Source: Sistotremastrum niveocremeum HHB9708
Taxonomy: Eukaryota; Basidiomycota; Agaricomycetes; Sistotremastrales; Sistotremastraceae
Assembly: GCA_001630475.1 (NCBI GenBank)
Contig: KV419396.1
Coordinates: 124,001-188,000 of the forward strand
Direction of reading: 5' to 3'
DNA: 64,000 nt
The position numbers and the translations under genes are program-made. Below the pieces are notes generated by a model that worked only from the letters and a program-made list of their open reading frames with translations, was not told where the DNA came from and did no database searches. Every line of letters starts with the position of its first letter. The stretch's first letter is position 1. Shown here in pieces: positions 15,661-26,744 of the stretch.

Positions 15661-17945
15661 CTACAGCGGCCAGGGAAGCTTTTCCCCGAAATTCCAATGA
15701 ACGGCCTTTATGGAGGTATACTCTTCCAACGCATATGATCCTAGCTCACGACCGATACCGGACTGTTTCTTTCCTCCAAACGGCACATTGTTGTTCAAGA
15801 GGTTATATTGGTTCACCCAAACCTTCAGAGCGTAATTGAGTGACTTGGACTTTGGTGAACGCAATAGATACTTACGGTTCCGGCTTCAAGAGCGGAAGAT
15901 ACACGCATACACTGATCGGCATCCTCTGAAACGAGATGTTAGATGATAATTGTCAAGATCATACCCACACTCACTTGAATGCAGTCCAGCGCCAAGACCA
16001 TAGGTCGTGTCATTCGCGAGCGCAATGGCTTCCTCCTCGGTCTGGAATTTTCCTATGGCTAGAACTGGCCCAAAGATCTCCTCCTTGACCTTGAAAAATG
16101 GTCATGAGCTTGGCGTGCAGCGTACCAGTATGAAACTAAGACTCACAATCTTCATTTCCGGTTTAACATTGGTGAAAACTGAGAACGATATTCAGCCAAT
16201 TCCTTGACATTGTTAGCTATAAAGACTCACTAGTCGGTTCAACAAAGTATCCCTTGCCATTCCATTTCTCGCCGCCACAAGCAACGGTCGCACCTTCCGC
16301 TTTTCCCGCAGCAATGTAATTAAGTACGCGCTCAAACTGAGTCTTTGAAACAAGTGGTCCTCCAGATACGTTATCATCGTGCCCAGGCCCGACCACGAAC
16401 TCCTTCGCTTTCTTCACAAGAATGTCGACGAATTTGTCGTATATCGAGTCCTGAACATACAGCCTGGAGCCTGCGGTACAGTCTTGACCGGTATTCCAAG
16501 TGATACCCATGATAGCCCAATTCGCCGCTGTTTGACATGGTTCTAGTTGTGTCCGTGTCATGCAGCGAAAGATTCTTTACCTTGATCCAAGTCGGCTGAC
16601 TCAAATATCAGATGGGGAGATTTGCCCCCGAGTTCCAGTGAGACCTGTCAGAATCTCAGCTTTCGCATTTGCATCACAAATACGTTAATTTTCACCTTCT
16701 TGAGATTACTCTTCGCCGCAGCTTCCATGATTTTGCGACCAGTGATGGTCGATCCAGTAAAGGCAACTTTGTCCACATCCAAATGAGAGGCCAAGGCTGC
16801 TCCTCCGACGCTTCCAAGCGACGGTACGGTATTGAGAACTCCAGGAGGGAATCTATTATTCACATGAGTGTTATTACAAAGTGGGAACTCAGTGTGCGTA
16901 CCCGGCTTCAGTGACAAGGACATTCAGTTTCTAGAAGCGATGAATTATCATTCAACAAAAGGACCCTTTCGCACGCACCAACGCCGTCAAGGGTGTGATT
17001 TCCGACGGCTTCATTACGATGGTACATCCCGTGGCCAAAGCCGGAGCAACTTTCCATGCCCTATGAGTGTGGTCAGCGAAGGCGCCTCTCCCCTACGATA
17101 TAACATACCACATGTTGATCGGATACTACGGGATATGCACTATGAGCACACCGTGAAATATCCAGAGTCAAACAGGGACGTACATTCCATGGTATGCTGA
17201 TTCGGGTATGATCAATTGAGTAACTTCTGAGCTGTTGACAAGTTACTTACATCTGACCGCAAACGCCGATGGGTTCGTGACGAGTAAAAGCAAGCTTAGT
17301 TTTATTGTCGACTTCGATCGTCTGGATCGACATTCAGCATGGAAGACTAACGACCGAGGCAAACACCAGACGTACCTGTCCAACAATCTTATCAGCCCAC
17401 CCAGCGTAATATCTGAAGCAGCCTATAGTGTCCGTAATATCGCCACCCCTAATAGAAGATCAGTACTGCGGCTCATGAAACGGGCAGATGTGGGCTGACA
17501 GAGCAAACTTGACAGGCTTTCCGTTATTCAGGGACTCCAGTTGAGCGAGCTCTTCGGAGTCGCGCTCGATGAGATCCGCAAGCTTGTTGATTAACTTGGC
17601 TCGTTCAAATCCAGTGACATTTTTTCCCCAGGTTGTCTTGAATGCAAGACGAGCTGCGGCAACGGCGGCGTCGATGTCCTTCTCAGACGCTAATCGCGAT
17701 TACTCAAGGCAATCCCCACAATCTGAGGATTGAACGTACCAGCTGAGACTTGACAGATCAGTTCTTCAGTTGCAGGATTGACGATGCTTTCGAAGATGTG
17801 AGAGTGGGAGCGCCGAGATTAGATAAAGCAGGACGCACTCAAGCTTTGGAGCTGAGCCTTCAACCCATTTGTCGTTTATGTATAGCCCGGTCGGAACAGT
17901 GACTTTCTTTCCATTAGGGAGGGTAACATCTGCAGTAAGAGCCAT
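15661..17945 (-). CDS. NAD(P)+-dependent aldehyde dehydrogenase
   Basis: Class-I-like aldehyde dehydrogenase of about 500 residues that oxidises aldehydes to acids; probably cytosolic, since the start ([20 protein letters not shown]) shows no targeting signal. Family motifs are spread over many short exons: the cofactor-binding [19 protein letters not shown], the general-base glutamate in [18 protein letters not shown] (about 16,590-16,645), the catalytic Cys in [14 protein letters not shown] (about 16,450-16,500), and the C-terminal [16 protein letters not shown] and [15 protein letters not shown]. All catalytic residues are present. At the catalytic site most relatives read GQxC with Cys, Val or Ile before Cys; here it is Asp. 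The substrate (acetaldehyde or another) cannot be told from sequence. Start codon is 174 bp from the divergent COX8 start. Confidence 0.93.
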
Positions 17946-18119
17946 GATCAGAGTAGTTGTGGAGGTCGTGAGATACGGGACTAACTGAACCGGAACGTTA
18001 TCAGGTGAGGGATATAGGGGACCCTTCCATTATCCTTAGCGCCCAGCGCCGCAACGCGCTTTATCGGCTATTCGTCACAGTCCGTCACAGCGTTACGGTC
18101 ACTCTTCATCTCAAACACC

Positions 18120-18611: not shown

Positions 18612-21600
18612 CTATGCCCCAGCATCAACCATAATGATATCACCACTGGCTGCAGCCTTCGCCTTCTCGATCCTCTTCGCTTCTTGTGCTTTCTCGCGAC
18701 AGTCGCAAACGGTCAGGAAGTCGGGGTCCCCTGCCAAGGCATCCAAGGCCGCCGCAGATGCTGCTCGAGAGGCCAGAGGAAATGTGATATCGGTGGCGCT
18801 GGAGAGAACAATATCGTGTATGACCACTGAAGCAAGGAATTAATTGCAATGCATCCCGAAAATGAAATGTCGTACCTTCAGCCGTGCTCCAATCTTCCCC
18901 ACGTCTGGCGTTGTTAGTATCAACGTTAATCATCTGTATTTTCTGACAACCCCGCCCTTGCACGAGCTCGAACAGGGTCTTGGTCGGGTGCTCTACAAGC
19001 TTTCCCTCCCTGATATGTGCATCGTAGAAAGGCAGAATCCGACGACGAAAGAATGCTTCCGTTCCCGAAGGATTAAACCCGTCAGAGACATAGAGGGCGC
19101 CAATCAGGGATTCTACCAAATCCGATAGCGGCTGCGATACCGGTTTTTAGCGACTGTTGACGTGTGCTGAGGCATTGGCTCACCTTGGGTTGTTCTAGTG
19201 AAGACCAATACTGGCCAGGTGGTCGTGCTTCCATCTCCGCCATTCGATATTCGTCCTGCTTTCTAGCTTCTAGAACGGAGACATAGTGTCTTATTTGGTA
19301 CGACAGCTCCGGAGAATCTAAAATCATATGATGCTGTAATCCAAGATGAACTGCCAGGGCAGCAAGGGTGTTGTTGGAAACCATGGCACTCTAGTACAAA
19401 TTTCAGGAACAGTTTGATATTTGCAAATTCAAGCAGACCTTCAAGACACTCAGTGGGCCAGGTCCGTACAGAGGATACTCTTTATAGAGATGTTCAGTTA
19501 CGACTATGTTGGATGTTTAGCTTGATCCATATAGCGAACGGGAGTTCTCTCACAAAAGTCAAGAATTGCATCTCCGAGGAACTCCAGACGCTCATAACAA
19601 GTGACTTGCAGACCATGTCTAACGGATGTGTGGGTCTGCAATGCGGCTTTTAGTCGAGAGCCAACCGCGAACAAGGCAGGGGCTGACCATGGCTTGGGCT
19701 AAGAACCTCGGATTGCGAAACTTCTGTCCCATCATTTCCTCAATCGTTCTCAAAGTCCCTGGCTTCAATTCTGCGGTTGTTGATGGCGGCGGGGGTACAG
19801 TCTTTCTCCCAAAATCAATCCATCCGTCCACGTGAGGAAGAGGAATATTCAGTCTCTTAGCGATACCCAATGCAGTATCTCGTCCTCCAGAGTAATAGGC
19901 CGCAGCAACAATAGCTTCGGATACGTCTGCAATCATCTAGAAAAGTATTTAGCATCCAGGTCACCTCTTCATCTCATACTCTTTTACCTTATCGCCCAAG
20001 ATCCTAGGTTCCCGCTCTACGCGTTCGGGCACTATACCAATCGGCGCAGGTTGCTCTGGCACAGCGGGCTGGGCCTCTCGATTGGAATCCGGCGTAATTT
20101 CCATCGCATCGTTATCGGCAGCGACGGGGCGCTCTAACATGGCTTCATATTTCCTGGCGGAGGATCGATTGACGATGGGATATCCGGGAGGAGGCTGCAT
20201 GAATGGCGGGATCCAAGATTTGAAAGTATGAACCGTCGTCTGGATATACTGAGATAGACCGCGCCTTTCCGCATTCTTGAGGAGGCAGAAATTACTGACA
20301 AGGCGCTGCCGTGAAAGATGCATTGCGCCTTCGGGCTCCAACGGACGTGTAACAAATAGGTATATCGAGGAGACGTATTTCAAAAACGCGTCACCTGAGA
20401 TCAGATAAGCCCACGAACGACAGATTTATGTGGGCGGCTCACCGAGAAGTTCTTGACGTTCATAATTGTACTCAATGCCCGCAGACGCCGACGTCAGTGC
20501 AGCGTGTAAATGCTTTTCATTAATGATGTGGTCAAAGTATTTCGCGTTAACCTCTTTGACCAAGAGCATTTCGTCTACTCGTCGCATGATAGAAGGAAGC
20601 AACAACACAGAGCGATAGGTACTGTGACAAGGTTAGAGGTTGTTCAGAGAGCGCATGCAGAGGTGCGATATACCTGGCGGGAATCGTTAAACGCCATGAG
20701 CACTCAGGTATCCGAACTACATCGTGTCGCGTCAGGTAGGGTTGATCGAGAATACTAGATGACATACATTGTATATCATTGTCCAAAGTTTGCTGCATGC
20801 TGAGGGGGGACAAATGGTTCAGAGATTGTAAGACTCTCACGGTTTCTATCAAAGGCTGCGAATCGTTCTTGAGCCCTGTGAAAAATGGACGCCGTGCGTG
20901 ATGACGCTCCAGAGGTGTCTGGTAGGTGACTCCATGCTGAAAAAGGATATCTGTTTAGTTCGGGAACGGAAAGCGCTCGAGATACTGACCACTGTGCTTG
21001 GCATTGATGAATGTGGATTCAGGTCTGGGCGAATACGGACGACCTGGAACCTGCGAATCCATTCATTGGCCCGGTCCTGCACAATGGCGTCCTCCATTAT
21101 CCGCTCCAGTTCTTCCACGGAATCCGTAGGGACCGGCTTTACCCAGTCGTCAACAGCTTCCTCGACTCTTTTCCAATCAATCTGAGCTTCTGTATGTTCC
21201 CCCGTTGATAAGACGCCAGTATCAGGCAGAGTCGGAGCGAAGAAGTACTGCATGTCAGCAACGTCGCACACCGCCGGCTTATTGCATACAAGTCGATAGA
21301 TTCTAATGGTGTACTCGCAGAGCTGATCAAGCTGAGCGGAGCTGATGGTAATTGGTGCCATAGCTTTTAACTCAGCCTGAACTGTACCCTGTGCGATGAA
21401 CAAGTCAAAGCCGGGTATATCGGGCAGAGGCAGCTTCGTCAGAACGAGGACAGGTTGGAATTTCCCATGAAAGGTCTGACTAGTCTCCAGTATAACCTTG
21501 GTGGGGTACAATACACTGGTCTGTGCGGAAAGGCAATTAATCCAAAAGTCGGGGGACTTGCTGGGGCAGTATCGTGGTCGAGCAGGATTAGATCGTCGCT

Positions 21601-23431
21601 CTCCTTCGTCATCGCTGACCTCTTCTTTGACCACGGGTGATAGGTACGTAACCCGCTGACCACGAGTGCTCACTATGGGACCTCTTCGAAAAACACGGTA
21701 GTCCAACAACCCACGCTCGTACAGATCGCGGCAAAGATCGTAGCAAGCAGTGCGTCGGGCCAACCATCGTGATTTGCATCGAGATCCAACGAATTTCTTG
21801 TATGGCCATGACGTTTTGTGAGGAAAGTGGATGGTGCAAATAACTTTACGCTTCTTCCTCTCATATACCTCTTCGTAGGTGAAGAGGACATTGATCTCCG
21901 AGTTTTCCGACGTATCGTAGGGTTGAGCAGTTACCTGACAAATGACAGACACAGCATCTGCTGGATAGATCCTTCCGCCAGAAACACCTTCCATCAGATA
22001 CTGCGAGGGGTCATCTTCATCTTCGCTGTCAGAACGGTATGGCTCAATGTTCTCCTTGATTGTAGCAGGAGGGACCAGAGGATCGTCGCCTTTCATAGAG
22101 TCAGCCCATCGCTGCAGGTCCGGGTCCAAACTTGCTATGGCTGAAGTCACACGTCGATGCATGTCATTACCTCTTTCTGCTAATAGCACATGATGACTTT
22201 GCTGGTCCTTTGCTCTCGCACGTGATAGGGCATAGGAGACATGGCTTTCGTACAGATCATACCTAAGAGCCACGTCACACTCTGGTTCTAGATGAAGACG
22301 AGCTTCTTACCGGATCACACAGTTTGCCGGAAGGAATTCGATATCTTCAGCGAACTTCGTGGCAATAAGGAGATTGATCGTTCCCATCCTAAAGGAGTGC
22401 ATGATATCCTCCTGAAAGACAGGTTTCAGTGATTAGGGTCTGCGAAGTGGCGATGCTATTGTACCAGGGTTTCGTTGTCATTAAGATGCCCATGCACAGC
22501 TTGTGGGCGCAAGAACCCCAATAGTTCGTCAAGCCCTTTGATCACATCCGTTATGGTGTTCGCCACGATGCGTCGATGAACTGGGTCGGGTGTGAGACAT
22601 TGTTGAGATGGCCCGTAGAGGTTCTCACCAAAAATAATTCCGCGGAATGACTCGCCGTATGGCTCACAGGCCTTCAAGACTTGTATGAGTTTAAGGAACT
22701 TTGGGGTGACGTTGAAACCACGGGACGAGGGGTCTATGTTCGGCATAGCAAAAATGTAGTTTTTGATCGTGCTGACAACATTGGCTTTCGCTTTTGCCAT
22801 GTCATTGGATGTCTTAATTTTCTCTCCAGTTTCTGAATCATTGGCTGGAACTTCGACAGCTTCTATATCGTTCAGTGCCTTGCGCCAGGCCAAGTCAGAG
22901 CCACAGGCACCAACGTCTTGCAGTCTGATAGGGGGTAAGGCTCAGGATCACCCGAGGAATTAATCTATGCACTTACGCATGACGAGCATTCTTGAAAAAT
23001 CTCCGAAAATATCGTCGATCGGGGTCAAAGAGTAATAACTTGGAGTACAACCGAGTGATGCTAACTTGCGGTTGAGGGTCGTAAAACACCACGATCTCTT
23101 CTGCTCGATTGCGGACACGTTCTTCGAATAGAGGATCAAGTTTGAGACGCTTCGTAGGACGTTTGTCGTTGCCTGATGAAGCCTGATCAGCCTGATCTCG
23201 TTTTCTGACGCTGCCACTGCTTGGCTCTGCGCATGGGCCTGAAGAGCCGTTGGTCTGAGCAGTGTCTGCGCTGGTACCAGTGTGGGAGCCTAAGTCGACG
23301 GCGACAGCTGCTGACTGTGACGCAGCACTACCAGACAATACAGCCCCATCGTTGGGACGCAGTGGCTCGGTCTGTTGACTGTCACGTTTCCTCCAAGTGT
23401 TCTTCCAGAATTTGAACATCATCGCAGCCAT
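18612..23431 (-). CDS. Dicer-like ribonuclease lacking the N-terminal helicase lobe
   Basis: RNA-interference endonuclease that cuts long dsRNA to small RNAs. From the start: a low-complexity N-terminus with a possible nuclear signal (DKRPTKRLKL), a HEL2i-like insert region (SITRLYSKLLLFDPDRRYF), the second helicase lobe (FRMGTINLLIATKFAEDIEF, ESHVSYALSRARAKDQQS), the Dicer dimerisation domain, a PAZ-like region (about 20,900-21,300), RNase IIIa (ERQELLGDAFLKY near 20,440 and KMIADVSEAIVAAAY near 19,930), RNase IIIb (YERLEFLGDAILDF near 19,590 and MVESLIGALY near 19,110) and a C-terminal dsRNA-binding-like tail. Both RNase III signatures keep their acidic residues, so cleavage should be possible. 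No Walker A (GSGKT) or DECH motif is seen in the gene or in the 400 bp upstream. The first ATG, 23431, opens a continuous exon. Confidence 0.88.
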
Positions 23432-23832
23432 GGATTACTAGAACAAAAAGCAGCGGTAGAGATGAGGAGCAAGACAGACTCTGACTCAAGACCGGATGCT
23501 TCGTGGTCTAAGTAACGTGGCGGCGGTGATATTCTGCATTCAGCCGTTCAGTCGTTGCTTTCTTCGACTCGGAGGTGTCGGAATTCGGAAACTCAATCCG
23601 GAGTGGACACATTAATATTGGTTCCGCAGGCTGAGGCGCTGTCATTCCAGGCTGACGATGGGAGAGCATATTGCAAGGCTGTATCCCTGACACCTTGCTC
23701 TGTCGACAAACCACCGTCTATTACTTGCTCAGTAATGTTCAACAACAGCTTTGCCGCTCATAGAGCTGCAGAAACTGAGGATAATGCTGCCATGCCACAC
23801 CCTGTTCCTCGACAGCGAGTATCATCGGACCC
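23432..23832. other. Divergent promoter region
   Basis: 400 bp between the Dicer start and the start of the conserved unknown gene. Open frames here do not join either gene by plausible splicing, and no helicase motif is visible on the minus strand. It presumably carries both promoters. Confidence 0.5.
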
Positions 23833-25262
23833 ATGCTTGCCTCTACGATTACCATCTACGAGTCTGTATTCACGATTCAATATCAATTGTTGAGGTAACC
23901 GACCCGATTGACCCCAAGGCATATTGGTACGCGAAGGCGAACTCAGTGGCCCCAGGGAAGTTCTGCGCCAGCTGAGGAGGACCCCAAGTCCACCTGTGGA
24001 AGAGGACACTGAAGGCGCAGACGAGGAAGGGGAAGAGGAACTGCCTGCTGATCTTCCGCAACGTCCCCGGACACTTAGTAGCAGTACCAGCCGGTCGAGC
24101 TCCTCCATCACCTCCATGTTCAAACGTTCACCAAAGGTGGCCAAACCTTGGCGAGAGCCAGCGCCTTTCGAATTATTTCGTGCTATCGAAGACAAAGATC
24201 TCATGTATATCATGGAAGTCAGAGATCGTGCATTCCATGTGAGCAAATGCCTTTCGTTAACCTTGATGCAATATCAATCTTCCCTTGAGCTTTTACTGCG
24301 TAAAACTGGAGAGGCAACTCCACTCGTACATGCGATGAGGATTGGCGCATCTCATCGTGATGTTGCGATGGTCCTGATTGGGGCTATGAGCCGATGGGTG
24401 AATCACCTCGAAGATCATGACATGGAGCAGCCACGAACACGAGTGATATTGAAAGCTCTTAGTACGTTCTGTCGACTCTGATCCTTATCCAGATCCAATC
24501 TTTGCTCAGGGACAAATCTCAAACTGGCAATCGATTATGGATTGCAACGAAGCCAAAGTGACCTAATCCCAAGCTTTCTTCAAACCCTCATCATGAGTGA
24601 AGGAGACAGATGGGTCACGTCAGCAAGTATGCTTACTTCTGAACCGACCGTTCTACTTCCCTCATTAATATCACGATTAGCTGCGAGCATTGCTTTGGCA
24701 TTAAGGGCAGGAACGGAAGGAAAGCCCGTGGCGGCCGCTGAATCTTTAGTCCGGAAGTTTGCCACCAAAGAACTCGGGAAAGCTGATGGCATCGCGGCTT
24801 TGGATGATTAGTAGGTGCTATCTCTTTCACTTGTTCGATGAGATTAACGCTTTTGACAGCATTTCGAATGCAACCATCGACCTGTTGCTATTTGGTGTGT
24901 GGAGCATTGCGTTGGAGTCAATTCCCAACGCAGAGTCGATGCCAGTAAGTGATGTGCTTTCTATATTGATATGTATTCTGATTTCTCGAAGACATATTAT
25001 TTCGCGCGAGACGATCGCGTCTGGCGAGCCTTCAAAGAGCGCTTAGATACTCATCAGAACGAGATTGGCACGAAATTATCGAAAAGGCTGAGGTGGCAAA
25101 TTCGTGTACTTTGTAAAGTGCTCGAGAACCGTAGCGAAACCCTTCACGTGAGCGTCGTCGGCGTTCCTCAACTTTACCCTCTGCTAACAATACGGTTGTG
25201 ATCCTGTTTAGCGGAAAATGGATCTTCTCTCCGGGGAACTGGACGACGGTCCTGGTGTCTAA
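23833..25262 (+). CDS. Conserved protein of unknown function
   Basis: Spliced gene of about 400 residues. Exon 1 is 23833-23894 and exon 2 23947-24238; later exons begin at 24290 and about 24511, and further introns occur near 24809, 24940 and 25146. The protein starts MLASTITIYESVFTIQYQLL, runs through an acidic/Ser-rich segment (PPVEEDTEGADEEGEEELPA), then a helical globular part with FELFRAIEDKDLMYIMEVRD, MRIGASHRDVAMVLIGAMSR, DLIPSFLQTLIMSEGDRWV and a C-terminal KERLDTHQNEIGTKLSKRLR. The helix-pair pattern recalls ankyrin or HEAT repeats, but I do not recognise a family and infer no function. It stands head-to-head with the Dicer gene and tail-to-tail with the peroxisomal carrier. The start codon is inferred from frame continuity across the first intron and is the least certain part. 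Confidence 0.7.
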
Positions 25263-25458
25263 CACTCATTCTTACACTGCCTTGATCCTCTGACGGACCT
25301 CCCGACATCATCTACTCATTTTTTGGCTTTCGGCGATCCACTGTCCTTCCATGACGCAGCATTTCACACTAGCACTGGCACACACAACTTTGTACATTCC
25401 TTAATTTAAACCTGCTTACACGTGCCCGAACTGGTGGTATAGCATCCTCTGTGCACTA

Positions 25459-26744
25459 TTACTTTATTAGGACGGGTGCGAGGGCCTGGTTAAAATCAAT
25501 TGTCTGACGTTAGCAAGAAGGTATTGATTTCGAACCTTCTTAGTCATTTCATATATCCGTTTTTGACCAACAAATAGTATGGCAGCTGTTAGCACACTTT
25601 GAATTAACTTATTGCCTACGCCCTTATAAACTCCTGATATGCCCTCTTCTTGGATAACTGTCAGAATACCGTCTAACGCCGACTTGTAGCGCAAAGCCGA
25701 ACTGTGGCCTGCTTGAAGTCGGCTCTTGATCACACTGTATAGTGCCATTTAATAAAAGGAGAGACTGCAAAGAGAGAAATCTCACATGTAAGGATAAGTT
25801 ATTGAGGTAGCCACTGAATCCAAAGTAAATATATGCTGCAGTGAATAGACCGACCATCGTAGTTTACCTAGCTTAGAGATGGCACCCAAGAAGAAAAAAT
25901 CGATGTCTGTGAGAGTACCGGGTCCACGCTGTCCTGCTGCTCTCAGCTTTGCAGTACGCCGTAAAACGAGTAGGTTCTTCAGCTGCTCAAAAACTGTGTA
26001 CTGCGATGAAGGAAGTCAAAATTCAGCGCAATGATTAGAACGGAGGTTTTACCTGAAGGACTGGATTGGTGACTATCACGAAACGCTCAGTTTCGAATCT
26101 TTTGCAATGCAATTGCATTGAGAGAGCACTGATCACACATACCGAGTACCAAAGCTGGACCTATTCCTCTCCAGAACGCCGGCAGGCCGCCTTTACTGAG
26201 GATATGTTGGATGGTCTCCCATATGCCCAACTTCTTGATCACCGTTGCCCGTTTACTACTGGCCGATTCGCCGGCAGAGTCGCTGGGTTCCATTGTTTGT
26301 ACGGCCTGTGAGGTCTGGATCACCCATACCGGATTACTGATGACGGCCGTTGCTGAACCTGCAACCAGTCCCGCAAGCATAGACTCCAATGTACTGAGGG
26401 CTTTCGAGCCTGACTTCCGATCCAGAATGGACGCCCGCGTCCGCTCGTAGAAGAAATAATAGGCCCCTTGTGTGACGGCGATTCCTATCAGTGAAGAACC
26501 CAGTCCACTATAAAGACCCGTGAGGCCTTCTCGAGTTATAATATCGTGGACTGCCTCGTATGTTGTCTGTGCCGACAGATCTTGAACTGCAGATCACAGA
26601 GAATTACAGGCGTCATACTTTATTCTCCTTCTTCGTTTCAACCGCCGCTCTCGTCGACAGAAATATCAAAGGATACGTGGCCGACATTGCGGCAATCCCA
26701 CCCAGAGCTCCAGCCAAAGCATGGATAAGAGAGTCGCTGGACAT
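25459..26744 (-). CDS. ANT1: Peroxisomal adenine nucleotide carrier (Ant1/PMP47 type)
   Basis: Member of the mitochondrial carrier family, of the PMP47/PMP34 branch that imports ATP into peroxisomes for fatty-acid activation. Three carrier repeats are visible: repeat 1 from the start (SLIHALAGALGGIAAMSATYPL), repeat 2 (MLAGLVAGSATAVISNPVWV, near 26,300-26,390) and repeat 3 (GAISKLVATSITYPYIVIKS). The modified signatures (ISNPVWV..TSQA instead of PxD/ExxK) are those of the peroxisomal branch rather than of mitochondrial ADP/ATP carriers. Repeat 3 continues with GISGVYKGVGNKLIQSVLTA and the tail ends ALAPVLIK. At least six short exons; the last one is only about 27 nt. Convergent with the unknown gene to its left. 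Confidence 0.85.

Follow-up and report, generated by a model that had tools for sequence, protein, structure and literature searches.

A predicted HEL1-less Dicer encoded in the genome of Sistotremastrum niveocremeum HHB9708

The stretch of DNA analysed here (hereafter, the window) comprises 64,000 nucleotides of the genome of the basidiomycete Sistotremastrum niveocremeum HHB9708, and corresponds to C3:124001-188000 (contig KV419396.1) of an assembly of 34.7 Mb distributed in 111 contigs. Its minus strand encodes a putative Dicer that holds a degenerate second helicase lobe (HEL2), a dimerisation domain, and two ribonuclease III (RNase III) domains, while the first lobe (HEL1), which carries the Walker A and DExH motifs, has been found neither in the gene nor upstream of it. 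Judging from the sequence, this gene looks like a real third Dicer, devoid of HEL1, that exists beside two others with a complete motor.

The Dicer gene and its domains

The gene extends from an ATG at 23431 to a TAG at 18612 in a hand-built splice model, which predicts 13 GT-AG introns of 48-53 nt each and 14 exons. The resulting coding sequence of 4161 nt (including the stop codon) encodes a protein of 1386 amino acids (aa) with no internal stops. Introns were picked by hand at points where the reading frame is interrupted and recognisable Dicer blocks continue beyond. Most came from listed GT...AG candidates, and the first one from the sequence itself. A CTRAY branch point is present in only 4 of the 13 introns, so the model gains no support from this feature. 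Exon 1 ends at 22977, and not at 22973 as proposed in a preliminary description made from the DNA letters, since the latter position is only as far as the open frame extends. The gene coordinates and the domain order given in that description have been reproduced by the splice model, Pfam, phmmer, and alignment to Arabidopsis DCL1 (AtDCL1).

Pfam searches with the whole protein, reported at E<=1 (the HMMER filters discarding most matches above ~0.1), returned five families, Ribonuclease_3, Ribonucleas_3_3, Dicer_dimer, Helicase_C, and RM44_endonuclease, the last one below its cut-off (E 0.0087). None of the models DEAD, ResIII, PAZ, and dsrm was reported at this threshold. Among solved structures, the top match of the whole protein is AtDCL1 (PDB 7eld, E 1.8e-62), followed by mammalian Dicers that include entry 7yyn, 'Isoform 2 of Endoribonuclease Dicer', which from its name and length is taken to be the structure of the mouse isoform Dicer-O. 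An AlphaFold prediction of exon 4 alone (424 aa, without relatives) gave a predicted local distance difference test (pLDDT) of 35.7 and a predicted template modelling score (pTM) of 0.23.

The preliminary description had also proposed a dimerisation domain and two RNase III domains with intact acids, and both proposals have held. The first domain is recognised as PF03368, while Ribonuclease_3 (PF00636) matches in two stretches (E 1.1e-39), each domain showing four acidic residues. All eight align to AtDCL1, at positions that we take to be catalytic. Between these regions, residues 612-849 match a human Dicer platform-PAZ construct (phmmer, E 3.7e-6) as well as mouse Dicer, with the Pfam PAZ model not detected. 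The equivalent stretches of the two paralogues gave no Dicer match at E<=10 (two matches for the paralogue on contig C6, both to an unrelated nucleoside triphosphatase, and zero for that on contig C1), and because of this the HEL1-less gene is the only one of the three Dicers with a mammal-like head. At the opposite end of the protein, the basic motif KRPTKRLKL is present as previously described, while the N-terminus that precedes it is Ser/Ala-rich and not Ser/Gly-rich (14 S, 13 A, and 8 G in residues 1-88). This motif might point to a nuclear location, and non-processive cutting may likewise be envisaged.

Absence of HEL1 and erosion of HEL2

At the sequence level, the lack of HEL1 in the gene 23431-18612 is confirmed. 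Patterns for Walker A, DExH, and SAT gave zero matches in the three minus-strand frames of 18612-26600. The same scan of the paralogue loci, which serves as a partial control, picked up DExH together with SAT at each locus, with a relaxed Walker A (TGSG) matching only in C6; the strict Walker A pattern is unmatched in either, and that of C1, split by an intron, was seen by eye. Pfam reported no helicase model in ten stretches, namely the 8 minus-strand open reading frames (ORFs) of at least 60 aa located in 23508-25265, exon 1, and the open frame of exon 2, in which the sole weak match was S-Me-THD_C (E 0.019). As a control, four of the five HEL1 exon pieces of the paralogues (all but L009:709-873) were scanned, and three of them are recognised as DEAD and/or ResIII. 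Curated cut-offs are passed only by the C6 piece L010:7953-8516 (DEAD 5e-8, ResIII 2.9e-5), the C1 pieces L009:855-1151 (DEAD 4.2e-5) and L009:1258-1560 (ResIII 1.7e-4) staying below them; the C6 piece L010:8500-8733 matches neither model. Together, these searches agree with the absence of Walker A and DECH motifs stated in the preliminary description.

Genome-wide searches gave the same picture. A query of 138 aa from the C6 HEL1 recovers two places, C6 itself and C1 (E 2.9e-5), and of the 15 ResIII matches listed for the genome, a single one belongs to a Dicer locus (C6:1018072-1018368), while no match lies close to the window. In tblastn at E<=1, none of the five paralogue HEL1 pieces matches 18612-26600, versus four of five that recover the other paralogue. 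This test is a weak one, as nothing in the window is matched by the C6 HEL2i-HEL2 piece either, even though the gene has a counterpart of its HEL2 part. The paralogue RNase III regions recover the Dicer gene at best E 3.5e-8. Four matches of HEL1 pieces elsewhere in the window (819, 32989, 42239, and 46071) were rejected as chance-level (E 0.12-0.75), none of them being near the gene.

The Dicer ATG is separated by 352 bp from the likely ATG of a divergent neighbour (23784), and a HEL1 lobe, with a size of about 200 residues, would be too large for this space. The preliminary description had pointed to an assembly gap at 23432-23832 and to upstream exons with Walker A/DECH motifs as findings that would speak against it; at the sequence level, the window contains no N, and no HEL1 coding sequence has been found upstream.

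The second lobe is still recognisable. Residues 176-527 can be aligned with AncD1D2, the ancestral helicase of animal Dicers (phmmer, E 3.4e-16), and shorter portions with AtDCL1 and MDA5, and the HEL2 alignment score is reached by 0 of 500 shuffles against C6 and 1 of 500 against C1. Helicase_C matches residues 290-355 with E 0.0015 and 19.2 bits, below its cut-off of 23.5 and far from the 44.6 bits of the C6 paralogue. Motif V reads IATKFAED-IEF, with one residue deleted, compared to ATSVVEEGIDI, ATSVAEEGLDI, and ATTVAEEGLDI in the alignments to AncD1D2, AtDCL1, and MDA5, respectively; motif VI reads ALSRARAK, compared to QSKGRARA, QSRGRARK, and QARGRARA in the same proteins. AtDCL1 (7eld) differs from the fungal protein in having canonical motifs V and VI and a complete helicase, and motif VI is also intact in the paralogues (AQSRGRARK in C6 and LQSRGRARQ in C1). 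The proposed retention of the second lobe thus stands, with the qualification that the lobe is eroded in sequence, the conserved residues of motifs V and VI being gone. Since HEL1 is lost together with these residues, ATP hydrolysis by the motor of this Dicer is predicted to be very unlikely. The earlier statement that the protein cannot hydrolyse ATP and can still cut is supported from the sequence (Walker A and DExH not found, degenerate motifs V and VI, RNase III acids kept) provided that 'cannot' is replaced by 'unlikely'.

A HEL2i remnant probably precedes HEL2, given the position of residues ~99-175 (NARHALQDVGACGSD) and an apparent resemblance to HEL2i. Neither sequence test supported the HEL2i-like region of the preliminary description: residues 87-217 yielded no Dicer match at E<=10 and two unrelated ones, and the scores of residues 99-215 against the two paralogues were reached by 153 and 306 of 1000 shuffles, that is, no signal.

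Table 1. Features of the Dicer locus (window positions) and location of the two paralogues (contig positions).
Feature	Position	Strand	Basis
HEL1-less Dicer gene	18612..23431	-	14 predicted exons, 1386 aa; open-frame splice model with Pfam and PDB matches
Ser/Ala-rich N-terminus, aa 1-88, at the expected place of HEL1	23168..23431	-	Composition; exon 1 without Pfam match
KRPTKRLKL, nuclear-signal-like basic motif, aa 90-98	23138..23164	-	Sequence; putative function
Putative HEL2i region, ~aa 99-175, one intron, weak assignment	22854..23137	-	Position before HEL2 and apparent resemblance
HEL2, ~aa 176-393, two introns, approximate bounds	22100..22853	-	phmmer to AncD1D2 (from aa 176), AtDCL1, and MDA5; shuffle test against C6
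Degenerate HEL2 motifs V (IATKFAED-IEF) and VI (ALSRARAK)	22208..22411	-	Alignments to AncD1D2, AtDCL1, and MDA5
Dicer_dimer (DUF283), aa 460-528	21695..21901	-	Pfam PF03368, E 8e-9
Platform-PAZ-connector-like head, aa 612-849	20576..21445	-	phmmer to human Dicer platform-PAZ
RNase IIIa, acids in ERQELLGDAF and IADVSEAI, approximate bounds	19880..20520	-	Pfam; AtDCL1 alignment
RNase IIIb, aa 1127-1248, acids in ERLEFLGDAI and LSDLVESL	19078..19593	-	Pfam PF00636; AtDCL1 alignment
Divergent C-terminal tail, possibly dsRBD-like, approximate	18735..18954	-	AtDCL1 alignment extends into the tail; Pfam dsrm not detected
Divergent intergenic region	23432..23783	.	352 bp; HEL1 not found, no N
Dicer paralogue C6 (L010), HEL1-bearing	C6:1014109-1018620, approximate		
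Dicer paralogue C1 (L009), HEL1-bearing	C1:481200-485500, approximate		

The divergent gene that shares the intergenic region with the Dicer (23784-25200, plus strand) gave no Pfam match over the cut-off in four pieces. According to Pfam, a mitochondrial carrier gene (25467-26593, minus strand) lies upstream of the Dicer and an aldehyde dehydrogenase gene (17460-18000, minus strand) downstream, both being ordinary neighbours.

Relation to the helicase-reduced Dicers of Basidiomycota

Dicer_dimer matches occur at three places of the genome, and all three candidates were scored. The C6 and C1 Dicers hold a HEL1 with DEAH boxes and a canonical motif VI, while their heads match no solved Dicer. 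The genome also contains five Argonaute loci (grouped from 13 matches) and five loci for RNA-dependent RNA polymerases (RdRPs, grouped from 15); in Agaricomycotina, funRNA averages are 2.46 Dicers, 5.68 Argonautes, and 6.93 RdRPs (PMC4290597). These numbers of loci, like the three Dicers and the intron length of about 50 nt, are in keeping with a basidiomycete. The Piwi loci are located at C14:215k, C5:280k, C5:1132k, C3:256k, and C51:56k, one of them on the contig of the HEL1-less Dicer, ~110 kb away, and the RdRP loci at C15:536k, C5:1189k, C31:364k, C11:662k, and C8:343k. RNase III matches without Dicer_dimer appear at eight further places (C7:221205-221527, C7:233571, C3:723092, C5:112141, C11:368842, C31:215417, C60:122170, and C6:1079116), those at C7:233571 and C6:1079116 being below the cut-off. 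One of the eight (L014:3962-5143) is a 393-aa open frame in which, by eye, EFDGD is kept and the second motif shows N for D.

Fungal Dicers with a reduced helicase have been reported in a 2025 survey that classified 2911 Dicers found in 1592 proteomes of fungi, some of them without any helicase part or with HeliC alone, mainly in the Basidiomycota clade Ba2 (PMC12663654). Its class 'non-canonical C' includes 273 Dicers, primarily from Basidiomycota of this same clade, which keep PAZ and lack the helicase subdomains and the domain (dsRBD) for binding double-stranded RNA (dsRNA). The commonest Dicer number in Basidiomycota is three (187 proteomes, 49.5 %), and in 189 species Dicers of classes D and C occur together (PMC12663654). 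The protein described here resembles the non-canonical C proteins of Ba2 in that DExD/H and ResIII are absent, with HeliC at most, DUF283, two RNase III domains, and no Pfam dsRBD, and, like the helicase-reduced Dicers of the survey, it occurs beside helicase-complete ones. At the threshold used in the survey (E<=1e-3), DEAD, ResIII, and dsrm are undetected and Helicase_C (E 0.0015) does not reach it, which agrees with the helicase and dsRBD part of the class definition. In contrast to the canonical PAZ of that class, no PAZ model (PF02170) is reported by Pfam in this protein, in which platform-PAZ homology emerges only with phmmer. Because Pfam PAZ is undetected at the same threshold, its strict label would be non-canonical E.

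A mushroom-specific, PAZ-bearing DCL-3 has also been named (PMC6145500). Coprinopsis cinerea DCL-3 (CC1G_00230, 1499 aa), the PAZ-bearing member of a set of three mushroom Dicers, is among the closest systems by its published description (PMC6145500). As HEL1 loss is reported for a Basidiomycota clade (PMC12663654), it should be regarded as a known feature of this group and not as peculiar to this gene. No orthologue was found in collections of viral and prokaryotic contigs (no match in the former and 25 pattern matches in the latter, none related), an outcome to be expected from such organisms. In the parts of the literature searched, no biochemical assay of a helicase-reduced fungal Dicer was found, which is no proof of absence.

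Proposed mode of action and comparison with Dicer-O

According to the explanation that we consider probable, the gene encodes an ATP-independent, PAZ-anchored Dicer of the helicase-reduced type reported in Basidiomycota, functioning beside two ATPase-bearing Dicers. With HEL1 (Walker A, DExH) lost, and with a decayed HEL2, DUF283, the PAZ-type head, and both RNase III domains kept, the enzyme would most likely work without ATP. The head would anchor the dsRNA end, and the two RNase III domains would cleave at a measured distance from the held end. The HEL2 remnant, plus HEL2i if present, would remain as a scaffold or as a surface for the docking of partners. Short dsRNA or hairpins would be taken directly and cut without translocation, ATP-driven dicing being left to the two helicase-complete paralogues. 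By analogy with mammals, the fungal enzyme is expected to need no ATP and to cut from an end bound by PAZ; this independence from ATP, like the open state, the substrates, the binding of partners, and the location, is inferred.

Several points weigh against this proposal. The start and the introns of the gene are predicted from DNA letters. By the E<=1e-3 threshold of the survey the protein falls in non-canonical E, although it is C-like by architecture (PMC12663654). Any placement in clade Ba2 is tentative, no orthologue having been found in the collections scanned. HEL2i, on which the docking role leans, is unsupported by both sequence tests. PAZ is no marker of HEL1 loss, since a PAZ-bearing Dicer of Sanghuangporus vaninii retains DEXHc (PMC9769868). 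Finally, HEL1 loss in mammals frees Dicer from a closed state specific for microRNA (miRNA), an effect that need not carry over to fungi.

The apparent lack of HEL1 could be an artefact of the gene model or the assembly, with upstream exons missed or lost in a gap. An acceptor-like, pyrimidine-rich stretch ending in TAG is indeed found immediately before the ATG, paralogue tblastn is weak (the C6 HEL2i-HEL2 piece being matchless too), and the upstream scan covered ORFs of 60 aa or more. Nevertheless, an exon spliced to that acceptor in the frame of the ATG meets a TAA two codons before it, no N is present in the window, the divergent neighbour is only 352 bp away, DEAD and ResIII are found in 0 of 8 upstream minus-strand ORFs, 0 of 5 paralogue HEL1 pieces match 18612-26600 versus 4 of 5 that find the other paralogue, and an identical architecture exists in a published class (PMC12663654), all of which make an artefact very improbable. 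The idea that the truncated gene is on its way to becoming a pseudogene, for which the eroded motifs V and VI and the unrecognisable HEL2i region would speak, seems still harder to hold, given that 14 exons stay in frame across 1386 aa, eight of eight RNase III acids are kept, the head can be recognised, and 273 helicase-lacking non-canonical C Dicers are known in other fungi (PMC12663654).

The retention of HEL2 despite the loss of HEL1 might also reflect an ATPase provided in trans by a separate helicase, which would allow long dsRNA to be cut processively. The degeneration of motifs V and VI makes such a composite site unlikely, and this alternative is quite improbable. A role outside RNA interference (RNAi), such as the processing of structured nuclear RNA like pre-rRNA, would fit the KRPTKRLKL motif, which would lead the protein to the nucleus, and a preprint according to which Dicer targets pre-rRNA in quiescent cells (PMC12458480). 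It appears improbable all the same, as a PAZ-type head with tandem RNase III domains suits a measuring dicer and the genome carries five Argonaute and five RdRP loci.

The ATP-independent, PAZ-anchored enzyme proposed here has a studied analogue in the mouse. Dicer-O, which lacks HEL1, has been captured solely in a cleavage-competent state, and binds better than full-length Dicer, by 2.1 times for 42-bp stem-loops and 1.5 times for 30-bp ones (PMC9645528). Similar RNAi is seen with human Dicer variants that lack HEL1, or that lack both HEL1 and HEL2 and have HEL2i, and TARBP2 is still bound by Dicer without HEL1 (PMC9645528). One allele of this kind in mice raises endogenous small interfering RNA by an order of magnitude (PMC11239679), while a review states that there is no evidence for processivity of mammalian Dicer without HEL1 (PMC10328071). 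The fungal Dicer resembles Dicer-O in that HEL1 is missing and the rest is kept, with a sequence match over HEL2, the head, and the RNase III domains. However, Dicer-O is an isoform produced from an oocyte promoter of one gene (PMC9645528) and the fungal Dicer is a separate gene, which in addition exhibits a Ser/Ala-rich N-terminus, decayed HEL2 motifs, and a HEL2i that is not demonstrable. The analogy is limited further, as in mammals HEL1 specially checks miRNA precursors and HEL2i is the region that binds partners.

It is doubtful that this separate gene is a fixed counterpart of Dicer-O, namely a nuclear enzyme that needs no ATP, measures from its PAZ, and keeps the helicase remnant solely for docking, the two paralogues being in charge of ATP-driven dicing; if it were, two modes of Dicer would be divided between genes within one cell. 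The purpose of the helicase of Dicer is debated, and a genome with both HEL1-bearing and HEL1-less Dicers permits their comparison by gene removal. Compared with the systems described so far, the Dicer encoded at 23431-18612 would represent a further case of the helicase-reduced type already known, in which the decay of HEL2 has been mapped.

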